Shown: positions 5,679-31,210 of the stretch, piece by piece
How the letters are laid out: each line of letters begins with the position of its first letter
How positions within the stretch are numbered: the first letter of the stretch is position 1
Source of the DNA: a virus
IMG/VR virus record: IMGVR_UViG_3300025110_000021
Location: 1-49,722 of that record
Length of the DNA: 49,722 bases
Reading direction: 5' to 3' (one strand)
Program-made: the position numbers and the translations under genes
Notes under the pieces: generated by a model
The model's input: only the letters and a program-made list of their open reading frames with translations
The model's database searches: none
What the model was told of the DNA's origin: nothing

Positions 5679-7136
5679 ATGGCAGACCCGTTACAATCAT
5701 TAAAATTTAAAGCTGGACTTTTTGGAAATATATTTGATGAACAACAATCTCAACTTGGACAAGCTGCTGAATTAGGTAAGCAAAAAAAAGGTGGGTTACT
5801 TGGTGGTCTTATTGGTGGTAAACTTGGAAAGTTTGCTGTAGAAAAATTATTAGGAACTTATTTAAAAGCTCAGTTTGGCCCAATGGGTCTCTTAATGGCT
5901 AAGGCTCTTGCAACTGGACTTGGAACTTATGCTGGTACTAAAATAGGAACTGGTAAGAAAAAAGATATAGGAGCTGAGCATGGAGCTGGAACTGGTTTAT
6001 TAGGTTCTGGATATGATAGATTAGGTAGTGTACAAGATAGTATATCGAATATGGCTACATCTCATGGTCTTGGAACTGGGATAGGTACAGCTGTTTCTGG
6101 GTTAACAGACATTGGGTTAGGAAAAGCAAAAGATGTATTAGGAGCTGGATTAACACCAAAGGAAGGTTATGGAGGATTTAAATTAGATACCCCACCCAGC
6201 GACGAATATTCTATTTTAAAAGAAAGTGGATTAGGGCAAGCACCTAGCTTAACATCTGGCCCTTTAATGGACACAAGTAAAGGTATTAAAGGCTCTCTTA
6301 TAAGTAAAGTGCCAATGAATTTATCAGCACCAGAAGGTATAGATAATCTTTTATCTTCGTTACAGGATGAGCAAAGTCCTTTATATGCAGACTTAAGTGA
6401 GGCTATTTTAGCTAGGGATAGAGGAGATATTGGGGCTCAAGATATTATTAACCAAGCTTATGCTGGTACTGGAAATGATTGGGGGGAAGCATCGAAGAAT
6501 TATGAATCTCTATTTCTACAACAAGGAGGTTTAGCAAATACTCTTTTAGGTATGCAAATGGGTGGTATGCCGGGAGTATCTAGCCCTATACCATATCAAG
6601 ATGGTGGTAGGGTATTTGATGAAGAAAAAGTAAGAAAAATGGTTAAACAATATGGAGAACCTGCTGTTGGTGATACAGATTTAACAAAATTTTTTGGTTC
6701 AAAGGGTTTAGGAAGGTTAATAGAAAACTATGGTGCAGACTCAAATGTTGATATTGACTTGTCAAAAGCACTAATAGACCAACTAGCTGTTCAAAATGCT
6801 TTTGGAGGTAAGCTTGGGCAGATATTGTCTATTCCCGCATCTGAGGTTGGAGATGGTGAAGGATTGAGGTATTATGAAGGAATTGGTCAGTATAGAGGTA
6901 GTTTACCAGATGCCGGTCTTCAATATCCGGCAATCAGGGATGCTATTAAAAAAATGACATTTACTCCACAAGATTCAATTCCAAAAGCTAGATTAGGCTA
7001 TCAACAAGGTGGTTTAACGGGCTATCAAGATGGTGGATACTTAAGACAATATAATATGGGTGGTTCAGTTGCTCAACAACCTTTATCTTATCAGTTAGGT
7101 GGACTTCTTAAATATAAACGAAGCCCGGTAAGCTAA
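5679..7136 (+). CDS. Glycine-rich internal virion protein
   Basis: 485 residues, Shine-Dalgarno AAAGGA before the start. Residues 35-90 hold glycine-zipper-like helices (GGLLGGLIGGKLGKF and ATGLGTYAGTKIGTG) that could insert into membrane. The rest is disordered-looking, with repeated Q-x-G-G motifs (YQDGGRV, YQQGGLTGYQDGG, YQLGG). It probably belongs to the proteins ejected with the DNA or lining the tail. It overlaps the next gene as TAATG, and the two may together be the counterpart of a single protein elsewhere. No enzyme motif seen. Confidence 0.55.
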   Translation: MADPLQSLKFKAGLFGNIFDEQQSQLGQAAELGKQKKGGLLGGLIGGKLGKFAVEKLLGTYLKAQFGPMGLLMAKALATGLGTYAGTKIGTGKKKDIGAEHGAGTGLLGSGYDRLGSVQDSISNMATSHGLGTGIGTAVSGLTDIGLGKAKDVLGAGLTPKEGYGGFKLDTPPSDEYSILKESGLGQAPSLTSGPLMDTSKGIKGSLISKVPMNLSAPEGIDNLLSSLQDEQSPLYADLSEAILARDRGDIGAQDIINQAYAGTGNDWGEASKNYESLFLQQGGLANTLLGMQMGGMPGVSSPIPYQDGGRVFDEEKVRKMVKQYGEPAVGDTDLTKFFGSKGLGRLIENYGADSNVDIDLSKALIDQLAVQNAFGGKLGQILSIPASEVGDGEGLRYYEGIGQYRGSLPDAGLQYPAIRDAIKKMTFTPQDSIPKARLGYQQGGLTGYQDGGYLRQYNMGGSVAQQPLSYQLGGLLKYKRSPVS

Positions 7137-7969
7137 TGGCTTCTAAGTATAGTAGACAACCGGGAGACAGTATACTGGCTTTGTTAGAGCCGGGTGAATA
7201 TGTATTGAATCGCAATGCTGTTAATGAAATTGGTAAAGAGAATCTTGATGAATTAAACTTTGAAGATTCTCCTAGATTCAATATGGCTCAAAGAAGTGAA
7301 ATGCAATTAGGTGGTATGTTAGGTGATTATATTGGTATGCAAACTGGTGGTTCGATGGAATATGGTGGAGCTAATACTGATTTACCTACATTCCCATATC
7401 TATATGAAAAAATGGATATACAACCAGTATGGACTCAAAAACACAAATTTGAAAAAGCAAATGCTTATGACCCATCATCAGAGGGAGTTCACTTTGAAGA
7501 TTATTCCAGAGCTGTAACAGATTCAACAAAAACTGGTCAACAAAAATTATTAAGTCAAGGTCAAGAATTACAAACTCAGCAAGCTAAATCTGGATTTGCT
7601 GGGGCTGGAGGCCCTCAAGCGATAGCGGATACGAGTAGAGGTACAATAATGGATGATTTTATATCTCAACAAGCAGCGGCTCAATCATCATTGTTTAAGG
7701 GTGTTAAATCTGAAAGAGATGATTGGCTAAAAACAACTGGCCAAAATTTACTTCAATTACAACAAGCAGAAGGAACTGAAGATTATAATCTGAATGTAGG
7801 AGGCCCAACAAGTACTGTTGGTACTGGACTAAGTGGAAGTACCATGGACGACTTGCCTGATTTTGATACAGTTACAACATTGCCAACATCTGACCAAGGT
7901 ATGGTATATATGAATGGTGATTTTTATATATGGTCTGAAGAAGAGGGGGGATATGTACCTCGAGGATAA
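7136..7969 (+). CDS. Virion protein with PGEYVLNRNAV motif
   Basis: 277 residues. The N-terminus SILALLEPGEYVLNRNAVNE matches the ALL.PGE.V.....V motif commonly found near the C-terminal end of phage tail and tape-measure-like proteins. It is followed by Q-x-G-G repeats (MQLGGMLG, MQTGGSM) like those in the upstream product and in the 14879 product, then a Gln-rich helical stretch (about 140-215) and an acidic tail. Starts by TAATG overlap with no Shine-Dalgarno. Probably a partner or the detached C-terminal part of the upstream protein. Confidence 0.55.
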   Translation: MASKYSRQPGDSILALLEPGEYVLNRNAVNEIGKENLDELNFEDSPRFNMAQRSEMQLGGMLGDYIGMQTGGSMEYGGANTDLPTFPYLYEKMDIQPVWTQKHKFEKANAYDPSSEGVHFEDYSRAVTDSTKTGQQKLLSQGQELQTQQAKSGFAGAGGPQAIADTSRGTIMDDFISQQAAAQSSLFKGVKSERDDWLKTTGQNLLQLQQAEGTEDYNLNVGGPTSTVGTGLSGSTMDDLPDFDTVTTLPTSDQGMVYMNGDFYIWSEEEGGYVPRG

Positions 7970-8039
7970 GGAATATTAATAGATGGACTAAGGCAAGTCA
8001 ATCTTAAAATATATATAAATTTTAAATAGGAATTTAATT

Positions 8040-9440
8040 ATGAGTAATGGTAAATATGATGTAATAAGACCGCAAGCTGTAAATCTATCACCTGCACAAG
8101 ATTGGGAAGATAAAGCTTTAGAAGTTTTTAAAAGTGAACGTGATAGAGCTGAAAGAAATGATATTAGAGGTGAGGAACAAAGAAGATATGACCAAAGCAG
8201 AGAAGATATGCTATTTCAACAAAAATATGAAAAGTCTATTGCTGCTTATGAATCTGATTTAAATGAATATAAAATAGCAGCTGAGCAAATAGGTTCTGAA
8301 AGTCCTGATATGCTTAGAAAAATTCAACAAAAATATAGTAAAGAGCATTTAATTCCAAAAAGAGATGGTACTTTTGAAAAAAGGTTTATCGTTCCTGAAG
8401 GAGTAAAACTATATACTGATGAAAAAGTAAAAAGTAAGTCTGATTTTGATATGAAATTAGATAATTGGAAAGATATGACGAATGAACAAAAGATTGCTGC
8501 TTGGCCTTCATTGAAAAAAAATAATAGATATTTTAATGTTGATTTGGATATTGAAGAAGGGCAATATAATAAAGCTCTTTCATATAGAGATAATGAAAAA
8601 TTACTTGATTCTATGGGCCAATTTTTACCTCAAGGTTATAGTAATGATTCATGGGAAGGCGCTAAGAAGATATTATTAAAAGATGATGATGTAACTGACG
8701 CTGAATTAAAATTAATAGCTGCAGATATGAGCAAACATATAACTAATAAAGAATCAGCTAGAGAGTTTTGGTCAAAGTTAAATACTGAACTTGTTAAGTC
8801 TATGGGAGACGTAACATTAGAAACTCCTCCTACTGTTGTTAACGATTTGCAAAGGATGCAAGAAGTGGTTAATCAGAATCTTAGTGAATTTTATCCAGAC
8901 ATGACTGAAACAACTGACAGAGGAGCATTTAATGCTAGAGTATCTGAAATTGTAAAAGAAAAATATGGGGCTGATGGAGATTTTGATTCATTATCTCCTG
9001 AGCAGCAAAAAGAAATTGTTACTCAAGTAGCTACTGGTAAAGCAATTAAAGCTGGTATTACAGCTGGATTTGAATCAGATAAAGATGAATCAACCGAAGA
9101 AGCAAAAAAATTAGCTAATAAAAAAGAAACTTTAGATGAAAAAGTTAAACCTTCTTGGATTAGCCCAAAAGGGGCAAGTGTAAAAAATCCAGTAACAAAA
9201 GAATATGGATGGTCTGCTGAAATGATGGCTAAAGCAGTAAAAGAAAGTCCTTTTACATACGCTAATAAAGGATTAATTCCATCTGATGACTATCCGGGTT
9301 TTAAAGAAGTTTCTATAAAAGAAGCTTTGGAACATTATCAAAAAAATAAAAGTAAATATAAAAAAGATAAGCCAATAAAAGTTTCTCAAGGATTGTTTAG
9401 AAATAAAAAAGATATAACAAGATATCCTAAATCTAAATAA
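8040..9440 (+). CDS. Hypothetical internal virion protein
   Basis: 466 residues, strongly charged (Lys, Glu, Asp) and mostly helical, preceded by AATAGGAATT as ribosome binding site. No signal peptide or membrane span. I do not recognise the family. Its place between glycine-rich virion proteins and the 1811-residue protein, with which it overlaps by TAATG, suggests an internal core or ejection protein. The 70-base gap before it holds only an AT-rich leader. Confidence 0.55.
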   Translation: MSNGKYDVIRPQAVNLSPAQDWEDKALEVFKSERDRAERNDIRGEEQRRYDQSREDMLFQQKYEKSIAAYESDLNEYKIAAEQIGSESPDMLRKIQQKYSKEHLIPKRDGTFEKRFIVPEGVKLYTDEKVKSKSDFDMKLDNWKDMTNEQKIAAWPSLKKNNRYFNVDLDIEEGQYNKALSYRDNEKLLDSMGQFLPQGYSNDSWEGAKKILLKDDDVTDAELKLIAADMSKHITNKESAREFWSKLNTELVKSMGDVTLETPPTVVNDLQRMQEVVNQNLSEFYPDMTETTDRGAFNARVSEIVKEKYGADGDFDSLSPEQQKEIVTQVATGKAIKAGITAGFESDKDESTEEAKKLANKKETLDEKVKPSWISPKGASVKNPVTKEYGWSAEMMAKAVKESPFTYANKGLIPSDDYPGFKEVSIKEALEHYQKNKSKYKKDKPIKVSQGLFRNKKDITRYPKSK

Positions 9441-12400
9441 TGGCAGACCCATATCAATTATGGATTGATTCTCAAAAAGGCAATCAACAAGTTAATAAAG
9501 TTGACCCATATGATTTATATATACAACAACAAGATAAGGTTGACCCATATGATTTGTATATGTCTCAGCAATATGGATATCCATCATTAACTGATGAAGA
9601 AAAATCTCGTTCAGTTGCAATGACTGGAAGAGAACTGCTGGAAGAACAAGAGTCTCCCGGCTTCTTGGGAGCATTATGGAGTGGTTTAAAATCTGGAGCA
9701 ACTTTAGGTTATGCTTCTGATGAACCAGTATCTCCAGAATCAATGACATTTGGAGAGGAAGTAGCCCAATTAACAGGAGAATTAGCAGGTGGTATAATTC
9801 CATTTGGAGTAGCTAGTGTATTTACTGGTGGTTATGGGGCTCCAATAGCTGGATTTAAATATACAAAGAGTGTATATGATTCAATATCTAGGTTAAGTAA
9901 AGCGACTAGAGTAATGAAAAAATATAGTAAATCAATGGATGATATTGCAAAACAAGCAAAAACACTTGGAATGGAAGCAGATGATTTATTAAAAGGAGGA
10001 GCGGGATTAAAAGGTTCTGCTTTAAGCGAGTTTCAAAGAAGTGGTAAGGGATTGTTATCAAAAAGATATGTATCTTTAAATAATAGATTTAAAACAGCTA
10101 ATAAATCACGAATTGCTTCTGAAGAAGTAATAACATCAGCTCAACGTAATTATATTGAAGAGCTCGTAAATAAAGGTGCTAAATCACAAGCGGCTAGGTT
10201 ATCGAAACAAATATCTAAAACTGGAACTGGTTATGTTTTACCGGGGCCAAGAGGAAAAATATTAGGTAATAGCAATCTATATAAAACTAAAGTAATTGAA
10301 CCATTGGCTAAAAAATTTGGTTATAAAGGGGCTGCCATAGCTGACAGATTTGCAAATAGCGCATTAACCTTTGCTTCAGTTGGACTTGTATCTAATAAAC
10401 CCGGTGATAGTCTTATTGATAGAGCTAATGATATACCAAAAGATATATTTTTAGGTACAATGTTTGCGGCTGCTGGAGTTCCTACAATATTAGGTAAGTG
10501 GGGTAAGCATGCAGGTAAGGCTGAATCATTAGGATTACTTGCCATAGGAAGTTATCAAGACCATCTTACATTTAATCCAGACCCCAATATGGATATTAAA
10601 GATAGATTATTACATGGGCTAGGCTTAGTTGCTTTTCATCATGTTGGTCTTGGACTTAGCAATGTTGGTATAAAAGATAAGATGTTTAATGGGCTTGTTG
10701 ATATGGGATTTGATAATACCATTGCTTATGAAATGGCATATAATACAAAATTTTCAGATGACGCAATATCTTATTCAAGAAAGTGGTATCAAAGAAATGG
10801 CTCACTATATGTAAATAAAAAGAATAATAAAGATGTTATATCAATAAGTGAATTTGTTAGTGAGAAAGCTGCTGAAGATGGCGAGCAAATGGGATATATA
10901 AATTATGTAAATGTTGGTCAAGATGGTTCTGGCACAATTGCTGGTAATAGTTTAAAGGCTTCAAGAAATAAATTAAATAAAAAATATAAAAAAGTAGATT
11001 TTAATGATAAAGAATTAATTGATGATTTACCGCCTGAGGTTAGAGAAAATAGAGATGCTATGTTAGAGAATTTGCAATCTGAATCTATAGAAATAGGTGG
11101 AGAAAAGAAATTTCAATTATCTGGGCCATCTACTCAAGGAGAGCCTACTGGTAAAGAAATAATTGAAAGAGGCAGGACTGTTGAACAAAGAGCAGAAAAA
11201 GATTTTTATAGAAGTCAAAGAAAAGATTTAGAAAAGGTATCACAAAAGAATAGGGTATTTGACGCTGAAAGAGATATTGAAGTAATATCCGAAGAAAAGC
11301 CATACTTAAAAGGAGACTTAGTTGAATGGGTAAAAGATGGCAAGGAAATGAATGTTAGCGGAGAAGGTGAATTTTATCCTATGAAGATATTAAAAGCTGA
11401 TTCAGATTACGCTTATATAAATATTGAAAAATCAACAATACCAACAAAATTAAGTAAGCAATTACAAGCTGATGGTGGAAGAATACCACTATCTGAAATT
11501 AAAATGGTAAGAAGGATAGGTAAGGGTAGAGAAGTATCAAAATATAAATTGAATTTAAGATACTCAAATAGAGAAGATGGAAAAAACCATAGGAAATTAA
11601 AAGATACAAGCTGGGATGAACCATTAATATTTGATTCAAAAGAAGCAGCTGAAAATTATGCAATGGAAAATTGGGTTGGTAAATGGGAATCTAATAATAC
11701 TATTAAATCTAAAATGAAATTGTTTAAAGCTAAGGAATCAAGAGTTGAAAGTACTCCAGAGTATAAACAACTTGGTAGAGCTAAAGGAATGTTAAATAGG
11801 GCATTTAAAGAAAAAGATTTTAATGACAATGAAATGAAAGAAGTCATAAGAACAATAGCCCCTGAATCAAGAGGCGATGTAAATAACATGACAATCAGAG
11901 AAATAAAAAGAACAACTGATTTATTAAAAGGAGATGATAGCATATCATTTGAAGTATTTGATTCTAGGGTAAGACTTGAACCTGACAATCTTATTGACAA
12001 TATAAATCCTAAATGGGGCAAGACATTAAAAATGGTAAGCAATAAGTTTAAAGAAACATTTCTTGGCACTGCTGCGATAGGAGATATGATTGGAGGATGG
12101 GGAGCTGAACAAGCTAGAAGAAGCAAGAATCACGCTAGGTTTAGAAATTCATTTATGGGTCTTGATGTTCAATTGCATAACAGATTAAGAAGAGACTTAA
12201 GAGGTACTGGTATTAGCTTAAAAGATATTAATGACCACATCCATGCAATACTTGACCCTGTTACATTTGAAGGTCATCGTAGCTCTGCTCAATTTAAGTT
12301 ATTTGAAAAGAAATTACAGAACTTTAAACTTAAAGATACATTAAATAATGAAATAAATTCACTTGATGCTATTGTAGATAGATATAGAAAATTCCATGAT

Positions 12401-14875
12401 GAAGCTGCTGTAGCTCAAATAGTTTCAAATTCTTATATAAGAGATACATCAACAAATACTTTAAAAAGAGTTCCTTTTTGGAAAGCTTATGATACTCAAG
12501 GTAATAAAATAGAATTAGTAGATGTATATAAGAATCCAGAATTGCACGAAAGACAAGTTTCTAGTATACTAAAATGGATGCAAACAGAAGGCAAAAGAAC
12601 TGGTTCTCCGGCATTTGCAGGAAAGCCAACTATTGTAAATCAATTTGGCAACGTAGTTGCTATTGATGCAAAAAAATCAAAACATTTTTATGTTAAAGAT
12701 TATTCAAGAAGGCAGGTTACTGAAGATTTTCTTGATTTTATAAATGTGCCAGATGGTAAAGCATTAGATAAAGCTGCTACATATATGGCTAAAAATGATT
12801 CAAAATTAAGAAAACTTCCATTTGATGAAGCTTATAATAATGCTAAGAAATTATTAAAAGACATACAAAAAATTAATAGTAATAATAATATATATGGACA
12901 ACAATATACAAGAATAGCTGACCTACCAGCTTATATGTATGTATCAAGAGGTAAAGGTGGATGGGGAGACATACTAACAATAGATAAAAAGAACGCATAT
13001 AAATCAGATGGAACTCCATATAAGGTTGGAGAGACCATTGTAGACGCTAATAATAATCCACATACAGTTGGTAAGGCGATAAAAGTATATAATACTGATT
13101 ATGTTCAAGTAATTAATGATTATAGTAGTGGACTTGCTCATTCAACTGCGACTTATCATGCATTTGGTGGCAAGACTGGAGATATAAATGGAACAATTAG
13201 TAGAATATCTGAGGGATTAGCAGTCCAAACAAAAGATAATTATTATAGAGACTGGTCAAGAAAGATAATGGAAAGTCAGGTATACGGAGAAAAACAATCT
13301 TCTTTTAGTAAGGTAATGAGACCGATAACAAGATGGTCAGCCATAGCTGGTCTGTCATCTCCTTTAAGTGGTTTAAAGAATTTAATGTTAGGTAATGTTC
13401 AAAATGCAACTGTATTTACTGGTAGAGAATTATGGAAAGCGTATCTTTCTAGGGACGCTGGTTTATTAAATCCAACTGGAGGAGCCTTTAGAAAATGGAG
13501 AAGTGCTAAAGAATATGCTGAATCAACAGGAGCAACATATCAATCTAGTTTTGACTTACATCTTGACACAAATCCTATGTCTGGGTTTATGAAAAGATGG
13601 TTGCCAAATCTTGGACTAATGAGAACAACTGAAATTTTAAATCGTACTATAGCTCAATCTATTGGGCCTTATTCAACAGAAATACATATTGCTAATATGG
13701 CTGGTTCTAAAAATCCTTCAACTAGAGGCACAAGTCTTTCTAATAGTAGAAGAATATTAAGAGATGTAATGGAATTTACTCCAGAGCAAGTTGAGCAAAT
13801 GGTAAACAGATATAAGAGTAAAGGTAAAGATTTCATGCTAAGTGATGCAGAAAGAAAACAAGCTAGTCAACAGGCTCATGTTATAACTCAAGGTAGTGGA
13901 GATTTGCCATACTTACCATATTGGATGGGTAGAGGATGGGCCAAGCCATTGACATTATTCTACAAGGTAGCTTATAGAATAACTGATACAGTTGCAAAAA
14001 ATGTTATAAAGCCTGGTGTAGTTGATGGTAATCTTGTACCGGCTATGAAATACATGGGATTATCAGCATTGTCAGGCAAAGCTTTATATTCAGCTTATGA
14101 TTTTTTATTTGATGAAGAACGCTCTAATAAATTTAAAGATGTACCATCTCAATGGTGGGATTATTTTATAAAAGCAGAAGGACTTGCATTATTTAGTAAC
14201 GCTGGTAGTCAATATGGAGGATTTGAAGAAGCTTATTATCCAGTCCCATTAAGAAATGTTCAAGTCGTTTGGGATAATCTATGGGATTTTATTCAAGGTA
14301 AGAAATATGGTAGTACTGCTCTTGGAGATGGGGTAAAAGAAATAGTTGCCATATATGGAACAGCTGAAAGAATATTAAAAAAATCTGTTGAAGAAAATGT
14401 AAAAAAACATGATGATTCTAAAAGAAGACAATATCAATTTTTAGATGCTTATTATCCAAAAGATGAAATAAAACTTGATTATGAAGATGGATTAACAGCA
14501 AAGACTCCTCATTACAGAGCATTGAGAGATGTATTTTGGCATGACGACCCTGCGAAAATAGCTAAGACATATTATGTATCCCTTGCATTTCTTTCTCATA
14601 GAATAATGGAAGAGAAAGGAATACAATATCCATTAGCTGAAAAAGAAGCTAGACAAAGACTTAAAAAAACTCTTGCCAGTTTAAGACCAATACCAAAGAG
14701 TTGGATGAAGACTATGGGTAGAACAGGCAAATCAAGATATATGGAATATATGGATGCTTTATCTTCTGAAGATAGAGATAAAGAAAGTAATATAATGGAT
14801 ATATATAGAAATAAGCAAGTTCAATTTTGGGATGCAATAGGCTCATATAGAAATACATATTATAAAAAAGGATAA
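9440..14875 (+). CDS. Very large internal virion protein (1811 aa)
   Basis: The N-terminus carries three copies of a DPY[QD]L[YW] motif (residues about 3, 22 and 34) spaced by Gln-rich linkers, perhaps a docking tag. Hydrophobic, glycine-containing segments follow at about 110-135 and 300-350. The middle (about 860-960) and the C-terminal third (about 1290-1480) contain long helices and hydrophobic stretches. The size, place and make-up fit the giant ejected core proteins of podoviruses or polyvalent phage proteins that enter the host with the genome. I see no lytic transglycosylase motif. The start overlaps the upstream stop (TAATG) with no Shine-Dalgarno. Confidence 0.6.
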   Translation: MADPYQLWIDSQKGNQQVNKVDPYDLYIQQQDKVDPYDLYMSQQYGYPSLTDEEKSRSVAMTGRELLEEQESPGFLGALWSGLKSGATLGYASDEPVSPESMTFGEEVAQLTGELAGGIIPFGVASVFTGGYGAPIAGFKYTKSVYDSISRLSKATRVMKKYSKSMDDIAKQAKTLGMEADDLLKGGAGLKGSALSEFQRSGKGLLSKRYVSLNNRFKTANKSRIASEEVITSAQRNYIEELVNKGAKSQAARLSKQISKTGTGYVLPGPRGKILGNSNLYKTKVIEPLAKKFGYKGAAIADRFANSALTFASVGLVSNKPGDSLIDRANDIPKDIFLGTMFAAAGVPTILGKWGKHAGKAESLGLLAIGSYQDHLTFNPDPNMDIKDRLLHGLGLVAFHHVGLGLSNVGIKDKMFNGLVDMGFDNTIAYEMAYNTKFSDDAISYSRKWYQRNGSLYVNKKNNKDVISISEFVSEKAAEDGEQMGYINYVNVGQDGSGTIAGNSLKASRNKLNKKYKKVDFNDKELIDDLPPEVRENRDAMLENLQSESIEIGGEKKFQLSGPSTQGEPTGKEIIERGRTVEQRAEKDFYRSQRKDLEKVSQKNRVFDAERDIEVISEEKPYLKGDLVEWVKDGKEMNVSGEGEFYPMKILKADSDYAYINIEKSTIPTKLSKQLQADGGRIPLSEIKMVRRIGKGREVSKYKLNLRYSNREDGKNHRKLKDTSWDEPLIFDSKEAAENYAMENWVGKWESNNTIKSKMKLFKAKESRVESTPEYKQLGRAKGMLNRAFKEKDFNDNEMKEVIRTIAPESRGDVNNMTIREIKRTTDLLKGDDSISFEVFDSRVRLEPDNLIDNINPKWGKTLKMVSNKFKETFLGTAAIGDMIGGWGAEQARRSKNHARFRNSFMGLDVQLHNRLRRDLRGTGISLKDINDHIHAILDPVTFEGHRSSAQFKLFEKKLQNFKLKDTLNNEINSLDAIVDRYRKFHDEAAVAQIVSNSYIRDTSTNTLKRVPFWKAYDTQGNKIELVDVYKNPELHERQVSSILKWMQTEGKRTGSPAFAGKPTIVNQFGNVVAIDAKKSKHFYVKDYSRRQVTEDFLDFINVPDGKALDKAATYMAKNDSKLRKLPFDEAYNNAKKLLKDIQKINSNNNIYGQQYTRIADLPAYMYVSRGKGGWGDILTIDKKNAYKSDGTPYKVGETIVDANNNPHTVGKAIKVYNTDYVQVINDYSSGLAHSTATYHAFGGKTGDINGTISRISEGLAVQTKDNYYRDWSRKIMESQVYGEKQSSFSKVMRPITRWSAIAGLSSPLSGLKNLMLGNVQNATVFTGRELWKAYLSRDAGLLNPTGGAFRKWRSAKEYAESTGATYQSSFDLHLDTNPMSGFMKRWLPNLGLMRTTEILNRTIAQSIGPYSTEIHIANMAGSKNPSTRGTSLSNSRRILRDVMEFTPEQVEQMVNRYKSKGKDFMLSDAERKQASQQAHVITQGSGDLPYLPYWMGRGWAKPLTLFYKVAYRITDTVAKNVIKPGVVDGNLVPAMKYMGLSALSGKALYSAYDFLFDEERSNKFKDVPSQWWDYFIKAEGLALFSNAGSQYGGFEEAYYPVPLRNVQVVWDNLWDFIQGKKYGSTALGDGVKEIVAIYGTAERILKKSVEENVKKHDDSKRRQYQFLDAYYPKDEIKLDYEDGLTAKTPHYRALRDVFWHDDPAKIAKTYYVSLAFLSHRIMEEKGIQYPLAEKEARQRLKKTLASLRPIPKSWMKTMGRTGKSRYMEYMDALSSEDRDKESNIMDIYRNKQVQFWDAIGSYRNTYYKKG

Positions 14876-23653: not shown

Positions 23654-24375
23654 TTTAAACCTCCACCACATACATCATAAAATTGACAGTATTTTTGGTT
23701 ACATTCCCATTCATATACTGGAGCCATACCCAAGTTAACCTCAGGTAGAGTTTTGTCCTTTATGGACAAATTAACACTACTCCAGTAACTATGAGCTTCA
23801 TCAATGTATTCTTCAGGTACATCAACTTCTTTCATTTTGCTTGTATTCTTATTGTAAAAATATAATTTCATTTGAATATTGTCAATTTCAAAAAATCTTT
23901 TGGCCCATAATCCGTATGTTGCTAATTGTAATTGATAATTTGTTGATGGTTGTTTGTCTGAGTATCTGCCAAACATTTGTTTCCACTTCCATTCATTACA
24001 AGTCTTTATATCATATAGCACATGGTTATCTCCTTCACTATCAAGTAAAGCTAAATCTATAAAACCGCGTACATTTAAATCTTCTAAGTATATTTCTTTT
24101 TCAATCAACAATGGTAATCCATTTTCTTGAGCATACCAAGTGAGAGCATTTTGTATATCTTCATGTACTAGAGTGCCAAGTCGGAAGATGCGTTGTGTAT
24201 CACTATTTACAGGCACACCTTCTACTTGACTTACTGCGGAGTAATAATGTTTTCTAGCACATAAACCAGCTGAGCTACTATGAAACCAAGACCTATCTTG
24301 ATATCTGGCTGCTGTGTGTTGTTTGTTTTTACGCACGAGATATTCGTGATAAATTGATTCTATGTTCCTTTCCAT
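23641..24375 (-). CDS. Cas4/RecB-like PD-(D/E)XK exonuclease
   Basis: 244 residues. Nuclease motifs run in order: His71 (GTLVHEDIQ), Asp107 (VRGFIDLAL), then YDIKTCNEW with Asp122 and Lys124 in the E-x-K place (D-x-K here), and a Gln in YQLQLATYG. Four cysteines, C39 (AGLCARKHYY) and C225, C230, C236 (WECNQKYCQFYDVCGG), fit the iron-sulfur cluster of Cas4/AddB nucleases. It would resect DNA ends for the Sak-like annealing protein. No CRISPR is present. Confidence 0.82.
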   Translation of the reverse strand: MERNIESIYHEYLVRKNKQHTAARYQDRSWFHSSSAGLCARKHYYSAVSQVEGVPVNSDTQRIFRLGTLVHEDIQNALTWYAQENGLPLLIEKEIYLEDLNVRGFIDLALLDSEGDNHVLYDIKTCNEWKWKQMFGRYSDKQPSTNYQLQLATYGLWAKRFFEIDNIQMKLYFYNKNTSKMKEVDVPEEYIDEAHSYWSSVNLSIKDKTLPEVNLGMAPVYEWECNQKYCQFYDVCGGGLNAVH

Positions 24376-24409
24376 ACTATGATATTAATAAAGTTTACTT
24401 TTAATCTAT

Positions 24410-24530
24410 AATGTTTTTTTATTTATTTTTTTTTATTTATTTATTTATTTATATATATATATATATTATATATATATTATATTAGCTATAGCTATATATA
24501 ATATAATATTACATACAGCTATAGCTTATA
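24410..24530. repeat. AT-only island with short repeats
   Basis: Almost pure A/T DNA upstream of the exonuclease gene, with a TTTA tandem run, TA runs and two copies of the palindrome AGCTATAGCT (24484-24493 and 24517-24526), 33 bases apart. The gap between genes (24376-24540) contains no reading frame. It could hold a promoter or an easily melted replication element. It resembles the island at 30953-31016. Confidence 0.6.
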
Positions 24531-24540
24531 ACAGGGATTA

Positions 24541-24858
24541 TTATTTACTTGTGTATATTCTTGTTATGCCGTCAGTAGTACCAGTCATTTTCTTTCTATA
24601 ATCCAAGACATTTTGCTTGAATGTTTTATTTTCATCCATTGCTTGTATTTGTATGTCTGGAAAGAAATTGCTTTTATCATCATCATTATATCCGTATTTA
24701 TCACTACAAGATTGGCAATATGCACTTCCTCCAATTATAACACCGCCATTTATTTTGTCTCCGTTTTCAGGATATGGCCCATTGCAACCATCGCAACAAA
24801 CTTCTTCACCTGCATTTATAACTTCGACAAGTACAGCGTCGTCAAATATCCCTTTCAT
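24541..24858 (-). CDS. Putative zinc-binding protein in AAA+/VWA operon
   Basis: 105 residues. Cysteines CCDGC (about 21-25) and CQSC (about 48-51) make a likely four-Cys zinc finger around a glycine-rich turn. The rest is polar. It overlaps the end of the upstream gene (ATGA-type) and is the last gene before the AT island. No family recognised. Confidence 0.55.
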   Translation of the reverse strand: MKGIFDDAVLVEVINAGEEVCCDGCNGPYPENGDKINGGVIIGGSAYCQSCSDKYGYNDDDKSNFFPDIQIQAMDENKTFKQNVLDYRKKMTGTTDGITRIYTSK

Positions 24859-25073
24859 GATTTTGCTGGAGGTATAATCTCTTTTATTAAATCACCAATC
24901 TTATCAAGAGCGGTAATTACAACATCAAGATATCCTCCAAGCTTAGCAAGATTCATTAATACAGTAGAATCATAGTTATCATCATTTAATTGCATTAAAG
25001 AATTATTAAATTGCTTACCTGCTTCAAGCAGGTCAAGATAACTCTCTAATACATTTTGCTCTGTTTCAGTCAT
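24855..25073 (-). CDS. Small helical protein in AAA+/VWA operon
   Basis: 72 residues, largely amphipathic helix (VLESYLDLLEAGKQF, YLDVVITALDKIGDLI) ending PPAKS. AAAAGGAGTCG supplies a strong ribosome binding site. It could be an adaptor for the operon's ATPase. No family recognised. Confidence 0.5.
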   Translation of the reverse strand: MTETEQNVLESYLDLLEAGKQFNNSLMQLNDDNYDSTVLMNLAKLGGYLDVVITALDKIGDLIKEIIPPAKS

Positions 25074-25113
25074 TTCGACTCCTTTTTTTATTATAAAAAT
25101 CTTTTACTAGGTG

Positions 25114-25152
25114 CAGAGAGCATGGGAAAATCGATAAAACCCATGCCCTCTG
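25114..25152 (-). other. Long stem-loop in AAA+/VWA operon
   Basis: CAGAGGGCATGGG and CCCATGCTCTCTG (minus sense) pair over 13 bp with one G-U and a loop TTTTATCGATTTT. On the plus strand the G-U becomes an A/C mismatch, so the RNA is the minus transcript. No uridine run follows. It separates the 25176 gene from the 25073 gene and could be a processing site, a stability element or a protein-binding site. Confidence 0.6.
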
Positions 25153-25156
25153 TTCT

Positions 25157-25175
25157 TAATAGCTAAACGCTATTA
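25157..25175 (-). other. Hairpin abutting the stop of the 25176 gene
   Basis: TAATAGC-GTTTA-GCTATTA in minus sense is a perfect 7-bp stem with a 5-base loop, directly after the TAA stop and 4 bases before the longer stem at 25152-25114. The two form a tandem structure in the mRNA. Confidence 0.45.
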
Positions 25176-25799
25176 TTATGCCTCACCCTTAACTGTCTTA
25201 TCCCAGCTAAGCTTTTGTAAAGCTCTGCCGGTCTCATCATCAATCTCAGCATCAATATCAGTTTTGTTTTTCAAATCACTATAAAGCTCACGAGGATTTG
25301 TAAATTTTACTGATGCATTTTTGGTAGTAAAACTTTCCATTTCCATAAAATCAAAAGATTTTAGCTTAACGAAAAGTTCTCGCAGATGTATATCTATTAG
25401 CTTGGATACAACTTTATTTTTAGATAAAGGTAAATCTCTATGTATCCCTACTGCAACGCTGATTTCATTTTCACTTTCTATTGTAAACTTAATGTTGAAA
25501 GCTGTATGGTCTACATCAGCTTTTCCACAAACTGCGGGATATAAATCTTCAGCTAAAAGACCCATCATAAACATTTTTACTGCCATTTGATGTTCATTAC
25601 CTGCATCCTCATCCCATACCCCTTGTCTATCTTCGAAATAAGATACAAGATGCTGAAATCTATCCTTTGCGTCATTTTCACAATGCTGATGTATTGAAAA
25701 CATATCAATAGATAATTTTAATGCTATATCTTTAAATTCAGATTCAACTTGAATGTCAGAATTTAGCACATCATCTACTTCAACGAGATAATCTATCAT
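25176..25799 (-). CDS. Hypothetical protein of AAA+/VWA operon
   Basis: 207 residues with mixed alpha/beta content. The middle contains FNIKFTIESENEISVAVGI and the C-terminal part is Lys/Asp-rich. AAAAAAAGGAG precedes ATG 25799. It follows the VWA gene by 23 bases, so it is in the same transcript and may be an adaptor or substrate protein. Family not recognised. Confidence 0.5.
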   Translation of the reverse strand: MIDYLVEVDDVLNSDIQVESEFKDIALKLSIDMFSIHQHCENDAKDRFQHLVSYFEDRQGVWDEDAGNEHQMAVKMFMMGLLAEDLYPAVCGKADVDHTAFNIKFTIESENEISVAVGIHRDLPLSKNKVVSKLIDIHLRELFVKLKSFDFMEMESFTTKNASVKFTNPRELYSDLKNKTDIDAEIDDETGRALQKLSWDKTVKGEA

Positions 25800-25822
25800 T
25801 GTTTTACTCCTTTTTTTGTTTA

Positions 25823-26872
25823 TTATTTAAGTTTTTTGCAAGCCTCCATAAATGTTTTTCTATCTACAACATTTGGAATCATTGTTAAATTTCTAAAATT
25901 ATGCGGAATACATCTACCAGTAAGCGATTTCATGTATTCTAAGCAACTTCTTCTGTTTTCTGTGCAAAAATAATATACTTTATTATGTATGGTATTCTTA
26001 GCAACTGTTACAAATCCATCAAAATCGCCAAAGAATATAATGGTTCTATTTTTAAATAAGCTCCATCTATGTACATCATTGCACACATCTTCAACAGTTA
26101 AAAATTCTACAAATTCTTTTTTCTTGCTATTATAAATATGAACTAATCTAGCATTTGGAGCATCATATAGTTCGATATCTCCATAATTAGTAGATTGAGT
26201 TGCTATTTTACTATAAAAATCAGATTGTCTTGCACAAGATGGACTGCTATCTAATAAAAGCAATACATTATGTTTTTCTCTAGTATTGCGACATTTATAT
26301 ATTGATTCTTTATTCAAAGTTCTCATAGCCAATCTATCAGCATCCCAAAAATCATCTCCATCAATAGTAGCTCCTACATTATCTTCTGCTACCTTACTTA
26401 TTACTGTTGATAATGTTATTGCTAGTCTTCTATCTCTAGCTGAATCAAGATTATATCTACCAGCTCTTGCTGGTTTTTTAGTAACTCGACTATAATCCTT
26501 AGCACTTTGAAAATTATCTAAAAGGTCTTGTTGCTCTTCTGTAAGGCATCTATACATTTCATCAAATTCATTATAATCGCTATCGGAATCATAATCGCCA
26601 TGCATCAACTTAGACATCTTATCTAAATTATTTTTGCTTTTGTTAAATTTTTCAGTAACATTTTTAGAATTGTTATGGTACTTGCTCAATCCGAGGGGCT
26701 TTAAACCCCCCGGATTGTTCGCTTTAGACTTAACATCAATATTGCTAGTAATTGGTTTACTTTCAGTAGTTTTGAGTTCAGGAGTTTCGTGTTTTATAGT
26801 CGCTCTACCAAGATTACTCTCGCTACTAAATCTACGCCAATTAACTTGCAGTGGATTTGAACTTCTTTTCAA
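25823..26872 (-). CDS. VWA-domain protein, partner of MoxR-type ATPase
   Basis: 349 residues from a TTG start (AGGA 10 bases upstream), overlapping the ATPase gene by 32 bases. Residues 1-95 are polar and disordered-looking. From about 200, HNVLLLLDSSPSCARQ carries the MIDAS metal site D-x-S-x-S (Asp208, Ser210, Ser212), and RTIIFFGDFDGF (277-287) is the following strand with further acids. This is the arrangement of CobT-like VWA proteins that work with MoxR/CobS AAA+ ATPases. Target unknown: metal insertion, complex assembly or disassembly are all possible. Confidence 0.75.
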   Translation of the reverse strand: MKRSSNPLQVNWRRFSSESNLGRATIKHETPELKTTESKPITSNIDVKSKANNPGGLKPLGLSKYHNNSKNVTEKFNKSKNNLDKMSKLMHGDYDSDSDYNEFDEMYRCLTEEQQDLLDNFQSAKDYSRVTKKPARAGRYNLDSARDRRLAITLSTVISKVAEDNVGATIDGDDFWDADRLAMRTLNKESIYKCRNTREKHNVLLLLDSSPSCARQSDFYSKIATQSTNYGDIELYDAPNARLVHIYNSKKKEFVEFLTVEDVCNDVHRWSLFKNRTIIFFGDFDGFVTVAKNTIHNKVYYFCTENRRSCLEYMKSLTGRCIPHNFRNLTMIPNVVDRKTFMEACKKLK

Positions 26873-28985
26873 GTGATTTTATCCTATTTATTTTTTGTTT
26901 AATCTCAAGCGATAGCATTGATTCATCATAATAATCTGGTTCTATGAACGCACAGAAGATTACATAGTCGTAAACTACATGAGCGAATACATTACTATTA
27001 GATAATGTATTAGAATTATTACGAGTAAGACTCCAGCCAGCTTTATTTAGCTTGGTACGAATATCTCCATCATGTTTAAAACATCTGTATAATGGTAGAT
27101 AAGGCAACCAATGGATTATATGCCCTAATATCTTAGGATGCACTATTCCATTAATGTTTAACTTCATCATTCCAAGAGTGTAACCTTCAATGTTATTGCA
27201 TATTAATTCCATATTTTTAGAAATTATTGCAAATCCATTTTGAATCGATTCTACCTTTACCTTGCTAATGGTACGACTTGATGAAGATAGGTTGACTAAA
27301 TCGTCAAAAAATGGCACATCACGCAATTCGCATGATGAAGTACCACTTGGCGATTGTAACCATATCGCATCACAATAACCCTTATGTTCACTTAATGACT
27401 TTAATACGCTGTTGCCAATAGTGTAAGTATTATTGAGTACTTGATTTTTCAAGTCTGTAACTGCAATTTTATTGCTTGATTTTGGACAAATCGTATTTTT
27501 TATAGCTTCTCTACCTAATTCACTTTCTTGAATTGTAAATATAGTAGCCAAATTATCTTTGCGATTCATCCTAAATAAGCTACAATAATTTGCAGCAGTA
27601 CCGCATATAACTTCAAGACCTTTACCTTCACGAAATCTTAAGTCAATTTTTTCACTGCCATCTAATCTTGCAATGATTTCCTTATCATCTCGCTTATGTA
27701 TCAACCACTTGCCACGCAACATTCTATTTACTTCTTTTCTTGTAACATATTTATCAACAAGCTTTATTTCACCATTAATTCTTCTAAATAGCTCTGTGTA
27801 GTCTAAATATTGCACATGAACAGAAGTGTAAACCTCAGTTGAAAAAGTATAGTTATCTGTAATGGCCCCCCATTCAGGTAACGATGCCAAATTTGGGTCA
27901 TCGCCATCTAAATTTTGAGACATCAACGCATTATCAGCTAAGCTTTTGATGCGTTCAGCATTAGTATTCTTATTAGTTGAGGTTCTTTTAAGAACAAGTG
28001 TAGCATCACTAGGAACATATTGAACTGGTTTGAACGAGCTGTTGAATTTAGACAAATCTCTAAGGTCAGGCATTGCAGGTTCATTCTGTTCATTACGAAG
28101 TGGTACATTGTCCACGCCATAATCATCAGCTTTTATCTTTTTCAATTTAGTAGTTGAAATATTTTCAACTTTCTCTTGATTGGATAGCAAGACATGATTT
28201 TCAGGCGTTTTTGTTATATACTGATACACCAATGAGTTCCAATCAGCTCTACTACCAAGTAATTCTATAGCATCCATCAACTGTCGTAATTCTTGTATCG
28301 TTGCAGGTTTAGGCAAATTTGCACTAATACTGCGTGTATACAAGTCAATCATTTGAGGAATGTAAGAATTGCCATCGTGAGTTAATTTCAAAGCAGATAA
28401 AACATCAGCTGGTTCTATTGGGTCAACATGAATCATTGGAAACCTACGAAGTAGAGCTTCGTGAAACTCACGCTCATCATTTGCAGTGATAAATATGGTT
28501 AAATTATCCAAATTAGCTTGGATATTACCACCTTCAACACCGGGCAATGATAAACGACCATATTGTAGGAAATCTAAAAAGAATCCATCTACGCTAGGTC
28601 GTGTTTTATCCCATTCATCCAACATCAGCATTACTGGTCTGTTATTAGACTCAATAGCAGCTTCGTAAATCTTACCATGCCCTATCTTGACACCTGAAGT
28701 AGTATCTTCAGATGGCATTATTTTGATGAGCAAGTCTTCTTCACGAGTGCCTTGGGTACATTGATGTACAAAAAGCTGGCGTTCCAACACTTGTGCAAGT
28801 ATCATTGGTAAGTAAGACTTACCTGTTCCTGCCATACCATACAGAAAAGCACCACTAACGGGCTTCGTATTAATAGCTGTTAGTATTTTGTCTGTGAAGT
28901 CAGGTGAGCAAATATACCCACCATCATTCAAAGCATCATGTAAACTGCTATTATTGTATTGTATGTCGGTTGTTGTTACCGCCAT
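26841..28985 (-). CDS. MoxR/CobS-type AAA+ ATPase with long C-terminal extension
   Basis: 714 residues, AAGGAAG ribosome binding site. The AAA+ core is in the first 270: Walker A GMAGTGKS (50-57), Walker B LMLDEWDK (Asp123, Glu124), sensor 1 FITAND (Asn169), arginine finger ALLRRFP (180-181). About 440 further residues have no motif I know, several times a normal MoxR tail. A ring ATPase with a VWA partner remodels proteins or inserts metals. It is the largest early gene and follows a structured RNA leader (29009-29148). Confidence 0.82.
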   Translation of the reverse strand: MAVTTTDIQYNNSSLHDALNDGGYICSPDFTDKILTAINTKPVSGAFLYGMAGTGKSYLPMILAQVLERQLFVHQCTQGTREEDLLIKIMPSEDTTSGVKIGHGKIYEAAIESNNRPVMLMLDEWDKTRPSVDGFFLDFLQYGRLSLPGVEGGNIQANLDNLTIFITANDEREFHEALLRRFPMIHVDPIEPADVLSALKLTHDGNSYIPQMIDLYTRSISANLPKPATIQELRQLMDAIELLGSRADWNSLVYQYITKTPENHVLLSNQEKVENISTTKLKKIKADDYGVDNVPLRNEQNEPAMPDLRDLSKFNSSFKPVQYVPSDATLVLKRTSTNKNTNAERIKSLADNALMSQNLDGDDPNLASLPEWGAITDNYTFSTEVYTSVHVQYLDYTELFRRINGEIKLVDKYVTRKEVNRMLRGKWLIHKRDDKEIIARLDGSEKIDLRFREGKGLEVICGTAANYCSLFRMNRKDNLATIFTIQESELGREAIKNTICPKSSNKIAVTDLKNQVLNNTYTIGNSVLKSLSEHKGYCDAIWLQSPSGTSSCELRDVPFFDDLVNLSSSSRTISKVKVESIQNGFAIISKNMELICNNIEGYTLGMMKLNINGIVHPKILGHIIHWLPYLPLYRCFKHDGDIRTKLNKAGWSLTRNNSNTLSNSNVFAHVVYDYVIFCAFIEPDYYDESMLSLEIKQKINRIKSLEKKFKSTAS

Positions 28986-29900: not shown

Positions 29901-29965
29901 AATTAATTTATTGTCATGTTTTATTTGTTGTAAGTGTTCTGAGTGTGTGTGTCAAAAATATACTG

Positions 29966-29997
29966 TAAAAAAAGGGTATCAATTAAGACACCCTTTT
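29966..29997 (-). terminator. Rho-independent terminator or attenuator
   Basis: Minus sense AAAAGGGTGTC-TTAATT-GATACCCTTTT is an 11-bp stem with one G-U and a 6-base loop, and the T-run goes on to seven T. It lies 29 bases after the stop of the first early gene and before the rest of the minus block, so it should give that first gene more transcript than those downstream. Confidence 0.75.
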
Positions 29998-30026
29998 CTT
30001 ACGATATGTGGAATGGTAGTGTTGAC

Positions 30027-30890: not shown

Positions 30891-30952
30891 TTAAAAGAGA
30901 TATACACATTGTACACCAATTTTTGAGATTTCCACACATTTTCTCTTTCTTT

Positions 30953-31016
30953 ATGCTTATATTATATATATATTATATATATATAGCTAATATTAGTATA
31001 ATATTATATTAAGCAT
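30953..31016. repeat. AT-rich imperfect palindrome, origin candidate
   Basis: ATGCTTA (30953-30959) and TAAGCAT (31010-31016) bound a core of almost pure A/T made of TATATTATATAT-type runs. A DnaA-box-like ATTTCCACA lies 17 bases before it (30928-30936). The divergent intergenic position, G-tract and AT core together make this the best origin candidate in the window, unproven. Nothing else coding is seen from 30534 to 31099. Confidence 0.4.
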
Positions 31017-31099
31017 ATGATTCAAAAATAAAAAGTTACTTGTATTTTAATTGATAAAGTATTTATATTGTCTATATGAAAAAATTGGAGTTTATAAAA

Positions 31100-31210
31100 A
31101 TGGCAAAAGCAAATAAAAAAAGTAAGAAAGCGGTAAAGAAGAAGAATCCAGTGCTAGAGGCATTGAAAAAACCATTCAAATTACCATTCAAATTCTTAAG
31201 ATGGTGGTAA
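31100..31210 (+). CDS. Cationic amphipathic peptide gene (36 aa)
   Basis: 36 residues from ATG 31100 (TTGGAG 9 bases upstream). The N-terminal half is Lys-rich (KANKKSKKAVKKKNP) and the C-terminal half amphipathic (LEALKKPFKLPFKFLRWW), like membrane-binding cationic peptides. First plus-strand gene after the control region. It could bind membranes, DNA or a host protein. No family recognised. Confidence 0.5.
   Translation: MAKANKKSKKAVKKKNPVLEALKKPFKLPFKFLRWW

Follow-up and report, generated by a model that had tools for sequence, protein, structure and literature searches.

The window analysed here is a stretch of 49,722 bases, the IMG/VR virus record IMGVR_UViG_3300025110_000021. On its minus strand, between positions 24541 and 28985, lies a block of genes encoding an AAA+ ATPase of the MoxR clade, a partner protein with a VWA domain and a third protein whose sequence diverges quickly except at its C-terminus. 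There is about an even chance, in our judgement, that the block encodes a MoxR-clade AAA+/VWA remodelling machine for which the third protein acts as client or adaptor, held by its tail. A first-pass annotation had described five open reading frames at this place, and all are present there on the minus strand with the sizes, motifs and 32-base overlap reported. The features are as follows.

26841-28985, minus strand: AAA+ ATPase of the MoxR/AAA_5 clade, 714 amino acids (aa), assigned from its open reading frame, PF07728 match, motifs and fold neighbours
28176-28985, minus strand: AAA+ core of the ATPase, residues 1-270, defined by the Pfam match and invariant residues
26844-28175, minus strand: C-terminal extension of the ATPase, residues 271-714, with no profile match
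25823-26872, minus strand: VWA protein, 349 aa, an open reading frame with a TTG start, D208-S-S-P-S212-C213, D283/D285 and a conserved C-terminal KKLK
26882-26885, minus strand: AGGA, ribosome-binding-like site of the VWA gene lying inside the 3' end of the ATPase gene and retained, before the TTG, in six close relatives
25176-25799, minus strand: third protein, 207 aa, fast-diverging, encoded directly 3' of the VWA gene and linked by profile to the third proteins of other clades
25179-25208, minus strand: C-terminal tail of the third protein (window sequence WDKTVKGEA-COOH), better conserved than the body
24855-25073, minus strand: 72-aa protein, an open reading frame whose association, judged by matches in relatives, is weak and variable
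24541-24858, minus strand: 105-aa CxxC...CxxC protein (C22, C25, C48, C51), a probable zinc ribbon from its Cys pattern, several clades having a homologue 3' of the ATPase-VWA pair

A conserved ATPase-VWA gene pair

The ATPase matches the Pfam family AAA_5 (PF07728) with 45.3 bits against a cut-off of 22 (E 1.1e-11). Among relatives its Walker A (GMAGTGKS), Walker B (LMLDEW) and LLRRF motifs, and the D-S-S-P-S of the VWA protein, are invariant or nearly so, while sensor-1 N169 and R180/R181 do not vary. Walker A and B, sensor 1 and the arginine finger, taken with the adjoining VWA partner gene, place the protein in the MoxR clade. The VWA protein of the window has no Pfam match itself; five of seven members of its family match VWA_CoxE (best E 4.5e-5), and DxSxS, FxDxD and D283/D285 are conserved among relatives. 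Low-confidence structural models have as their neighbours NorQ, CbbQ, dynein and Rea1 for the ATPase, and MDN1-MIDAS, NorD and integrin I domains for the VWA protein. All Z-scores are below 8, and the folds are therefore only compatible with these structures. NorQ and NorD nevertheless arise independently among the neighbours of the two models. Sequence-profile searches of the PDB returned nothing useful, with no match to NorQ/NorD or CbbQ/CbbO. The earlier description of a MoxR-type AAA+ protein with a VWA partner is supported by three lines of evidence: the Pfam match, these neighbours (the models being of low confidence) and the pairing, which holds in all relatives where it could be assessed.

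No DNA or protein match for the pair was found in INPHARED, which yielded only weak matches to the AAA+ core (ClpA-like proteins and one CobS). Scans of IMG/VR with proteins and profiles, on the other hand, recovered dozens of contigs with relatives, and the lineage, one of uncultured marine phages, is abundant there, with more than 590 terminase matches. The VWA gene directly follows the ATPase gene in 37 of the 37 virus contigs that extend far enough, a count which includes near-copies so that independent cases are fewer, and the gap between the two ranges from -143 to +44 bases. Where a related contig has an ATPase gene and no VWA gene, it ends in or just past the former, and the VWA gene is present in all seven virus records searched whole. 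The first-pass annotation had named failure of the VWA gene to stay beside the ATPase gene in relatives as an outcome that would speak against it; in the survey of virus contigs the two are always adjacent. Contigs L167-L175 were left out of the count of pairs as they match only the AAA+ core, at 27-35%. These virus contigs carry a short AAA+ protein of ~280 aa, and in L168 the gene is followed by an overlapping open reading frame of 465 aa, possibly another pair.

In the window the ATPase and VWA genes share 32 bases (26841-26872, minus strand), and the TTG start of the VWA gene and the AGGA that precedes it are both kept in the six close relatives checked. Close relatives carry the ATPase, VWA protein and third protein in the same order; in each case where the contig extends far enough, the Cys-rich protein is found downstream. 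Identity among them falls from 85-93% for the terminase to 52-63% for the ATPase, 39-53% for the VWA protein and 26-37% for the third protein. The ratio of non-synonymous to synonymous substitution rates (dN/dS) lies between 0.03 and 0.41 across four close pairs. In three of the four the ATPase has the lowest value, and those of the VWA protein and of the third (or neighbouring) protein are similar. The genes are thus under purifying selection, which constrains the ATPase more than the other two. In related clades dN/dS is likewise below 1 for the third protein.

The first-pass annotation had remarked that some 440 C-terminal residues of the ATPase carry no familiar motif, and had named as a further adverse outcome a well-known domain there that explains the gene otherwise; a profile search of this extension found no known domain. 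Residues 271-714 have no match in Pfam, PHROGs or NCBIfam, and the structure model is unreliable in this region. Bacterial homologues align to the family profile, a hidden Markov model, over A8 positions 10-462, and weakly or not at all beyond. Since their similarity covers the core and the next ~190 residues, with little further on, the extension consists of at least two parts: a segment of about residues 271-460 common to bacterial homologues and a lineage-specific segment of about 470-714. MadB ATPase (NCBIfam NF047784) was rejected as an identity for the protein, the match of 42.4 bits comparing with a curated cut-off of 475, and a literature search on MadB gave nothing relevant. Comparison with single sequences of RavA and ViaA gave hhalign values of 9.5% and 0.4%, respectively.

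A third protein with a conserved tail

In most clades a third protein of 160-310 aa is encoded directly 3' of the VWA gene. Profile comparisons link the third proteins of different clades, at 56% for C1-C2, 48% for C1-C5, 54% for C1-C6 and 94% for C5-C8, against 2.6% or less in controls; the C1-C8 link is weaker. In loci L160, L161 and L166 a domain resembling the third protein is fused to a Cys-rich protein, which ties these two components together.

The C-terminus of the third protein behaves differently from its body. Identity in the tail and the body is 0.70 and 0.31, respectively, in the clade of the window; two further clades give 0.93 for the tail with 0.51 for the body, and 0.87 with 0.57. 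Within C1, C3 and C5 the final ten residues rank at or near the top in conservation, a pattern that is less clear in C2 and C4. The final residue is Ala or Ser in 22 of 22 sampled third proteins, compared with 33 of 271 (12%) background proteins from the same loci, a contrast weakened by the fact that the 22 represent only about eight independent clades, the fair unit of comparison. A Fisher test on these counts treats related proteins as independent, and its value is not a fair probability. When judged by position alone, the next gene after that for the VWA protein encodes a final Ala or Ser in most clades, the exceptions being L151, L153 and most of L159-L166. A conserved tail is what the client of a machine of the CbbQO or NorQD type would be expected to show, and by this analogy the third protein may be a client or adaptor.

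A number of further observations weigh against a machine with a tail-held client. The third proteins of C3, C4 and C7 have no secure link to the family, C3 and C4 being joined only to each other and weakly, and some loci (L151, L153) have no recognisable third protein. Those of C5 and C8 were chosen by profile rather than by position. A control family of proteins of the MGFDLYG type also has a fairly conserved tail, and the tail of the third protein could itself be a degron. With regard to the pair, the models are poor (predicted local distance difference test scores of 57 and 48 for the two, with structural Z-scores all below 8), and the threonine of the metal-ion-dependent adhesion site (MIDAS) cannot be assigned in the VWA protein.

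Known systems and alternative explanations

Two known pairs offer a comparison only in how the block may work. NorQ and NorD, chaperone of nitric oxide reductase, are likewise a separate MoxR-clade ATPase and VWA protein, and are among the nearest solved structures of both models; NorQ, however, has ~260 aa and lacks the 440-residue extension, and the gene context differs. In NorQD a finger of the VWA protein sits in the pore of the ring, and twisting is involved (PMC13036017). CbbQ and CbbO also combine a MoxR ATPase with a VWA adaptor, although CbbO has ~770 aa and the client is rubisco. The extreme C-terminus of that client is essential, which recalls the conserved tail seen here: CbbQO no longer activates rubisco once the client's C-terminus has gained an alanine or been shortened, and a C-terminal peptide stimulates the ATPase (PMC4660213).

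The most serious alternative for the tail, though an unlikely one, is that it is an ssrA-like signal for degradation by a host protease rather than a handle. The tails end in GEA, AEA, YEA, ARA, AKS or AES, and endings of this kind resemble small-residue C-terminal degrons. Set against this is the retention of the tail, in most clades, on the gene adjoining the VWA gene, as well as the requirement of the closest studied MoxR-VWA pair, CbbQO, for the exact C-terminus of its client (PMC4660213). It is improbable, too, that the pair is a chaperone of virion assembly which remodels a phage structural protein, as has been proposed for the MoxR-vWA pairs of jumbo phages and for the tail of Acidianus two-tailed virus (ATV) (PMC7824862, PMC7911831). 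The jumbo-phage MoxR-vWA(metallopeptidase) pair and ATV p618/p892 are viral MoxR-vWA chaperone pairs as well, but the VWA protein of the window has no recognisable peptidase and its operon is a replication block: the pair lies among genes for a Cas4-like nuclease, recombination and DnaB rather than structural genes, a setting kept in relatives. A fusion of the jumbo-phage type, with a metallopeptidase domain N-terminal to the VWA domain, was rejected, there being no peptidase Pfam match among the VWA members and no HExxH in the window translation.

A role in host conflict or superinfection exclusion, akin to the MoxR-vWA ternary systems, would account for the three-component layout and for the rapid evolution of the VWA and third proteins, features of the MoxR-vWA-VMAP systems (PMC7159879). 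It is nonetheless a poor prospect: the pair persists in the whole lineage, as a swapped module would not, and PADLOC returned weak AAA+ matches only. In the known systems the genes run VMAP, MoxR, vWA, and the vWA protein bears effector domains; the block differs in gene order, lacks effector domains and stands in a phage setting. By their definition (PMC7159879), membership was rejected on two grounds, the position of the third gene downstream of the pair and not before it, and the end of the VWA protein at the VWA domain with no effector. Least probable is a phage CobST in which the pair helps host CobN to make cobalamin. CobST pairs are widespread in tailed viruses (PMC8651126), and those of cyanophages, haloarchaeal viruses and Pseudomonas phage hairong share with the block an AAA+ gene adjoining a VWA gene; the ATPase also has a match to PHROG 249, 'porphyrin biosynthesis', in its AAA+ core. 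A CobS or metal-insertion reading is nevertheless not supported: CobT does not match the VWA profile (hhalign 0.2%, with the one CobT of phage hairong), and the alignment with CobS spans just 109 columns, confined to the AAA+ core. The two-gene cobST cluster has no counterpart of the third protein or of the C-terminal extension, and in hairong the order is CobT then CobS. The block is best regarded as a variant of known MoxR-VWA machinery, and not as a cobaltochelatase by the CobT comparison made here.

Bacterial relatives of the pair

Sparsely distributed and so far unstudied relatives of the pair occur on bacterial chromosomes. A scan of genome contigs found three ATPase loci, each with an adjoining VWA gene, and in three phylum samples the VWA gene is present in 6 of 52, 1 of 247 and 4 of 247 genomes, counts that include the seed genomes; the contigs carrying it measure up to 3.55 Mb. 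The bacterial pairs (L096, L111-L118) are homologous to those of the viruses over the AAA+ core, part of the extension and the VWA domain. They differ in the far C-terminus, in their sparse distribution and in that no third protein was found with them. They have no constant neighbour gene; genes resembling glycerol-3-phosphate dehydrogenase (near two sets) and a flavoprotein resembling that of succinate dehydrogenase (near one) were named by eye.

A tree of the ATPases joins the sequence of virus contig L154 to those of two bacterial genomes, both from one phylum sample, with support of 100/100. This suggests exchange between viruses and bacteria, in a tree with an unreliable root and several long branches; it cannot be rooted with long outgroups and carries no direction of transfer. 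The pair of L154 lies at 5881-9422 of a 109-kb virus contig, IMGVR_UViG_2830247124_000001.

Genomic setting

The block stands toward the upstream end of a minus-strand operon which also encodes a Cas4-like nuclease, a recombination-type protein (a PHROG exonuclease) and DnaB, and relatives keep the pair in this replication and recombination setting, with structural genes not among its neighbours. This position suggests action before virion assembly. The first-pass annotation had proposed a dedicated host- or phage-directed machine made early, which fits both the operon position and the fast divergence, target and timing being the conjectural parts.

Two of its smaller statements hold in part. 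The three small downstream genes exist as open reading frames, but the 72-aa gene is an unstable member of the set, its best matches in L001 and L002 lying upstream of the ATPase gene, so the block is better described as three proteins with an often-present zinc-ribbon-like protein. Dad3 was rejected as an identity for the 72-aa protein, the Pfam match being under its cut-off. Of the AT-rich islands placed on both sides of the block, the downstream one is adjacent (22% GC, 24300-24599) whereas the upstream one is not: the highest GC content of the stretch (41% at 28650-28949) is found where the ATPase gene has its upstream end, and the other island, at 30900-31199, lies away from the block. 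Promoter-like sites are no commoner than in shuffles.

Elsewhere in the window, a strong terminator-like stem of 16 pairs lies on the minus strand at 29965-30002, between genes of 174 and 137 aa, and an open reading frame of 1811 aa (9440-14875) has no PHROG match at E 0.01. In many relatives a ParB-like family with an LDGQHR motif is encoded 3' of the block (L122:10131-10907 and genes of L123, L125, L129, L138 and L139); it was not seen in the corresponding part of the window. The MGFDLYG-type family, conserved and of unknown function, with its fairly conserved C-terminus, is found 3' of the VWA gene in L131, L132, L136, L137, L125 and L153. The terminase gene of L006 (3137-4854) lies in two frames relative to its close relative L005, reflecting a frameshift or a sequencing error.

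A proposed mechanism and its implications

In the machine that we propose, the ATPase would form a hexameric ring on which the VWA protein, produced by coupled translation, would dock. The metal site of the VWA protein may bind a partner, and ATP turnover would then twist or pull that partner, after the manner of NorQD, CbbQO and Rea1/Mdn1; on the pattern of NorQD and CbbQO, a client would be held both by the metal site and by its own C-terminus. Most likely the dedicated client or adaptor would be the third protein. Its body may change fast in response to a shifting target in host or phage, and its C-terminus would stay fixed because the machine grips it. The target may be a host protein or the replication machinery of the phage itself. 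A bolder version, which we put forward only tentatively, is a virus-encoded three-component machine in which a tail-gripped viral adaptor redirects the motor to a lineage-specific host target, the ATPase extension being a new domain.

If true, this would give the phage a remodelling device of its own, one whose targeting subunit could be exchanged. MoxR-VWA pairs are common and few of their clients are known. This compact phage version has a candidate client in the neighbouring gene, a tail motif that lends itself to testing and numerous natural variants; it would make client recognition directly addressable, and the analysis also reveals an unstudied family of bacterial ATPase-VWA pairs.

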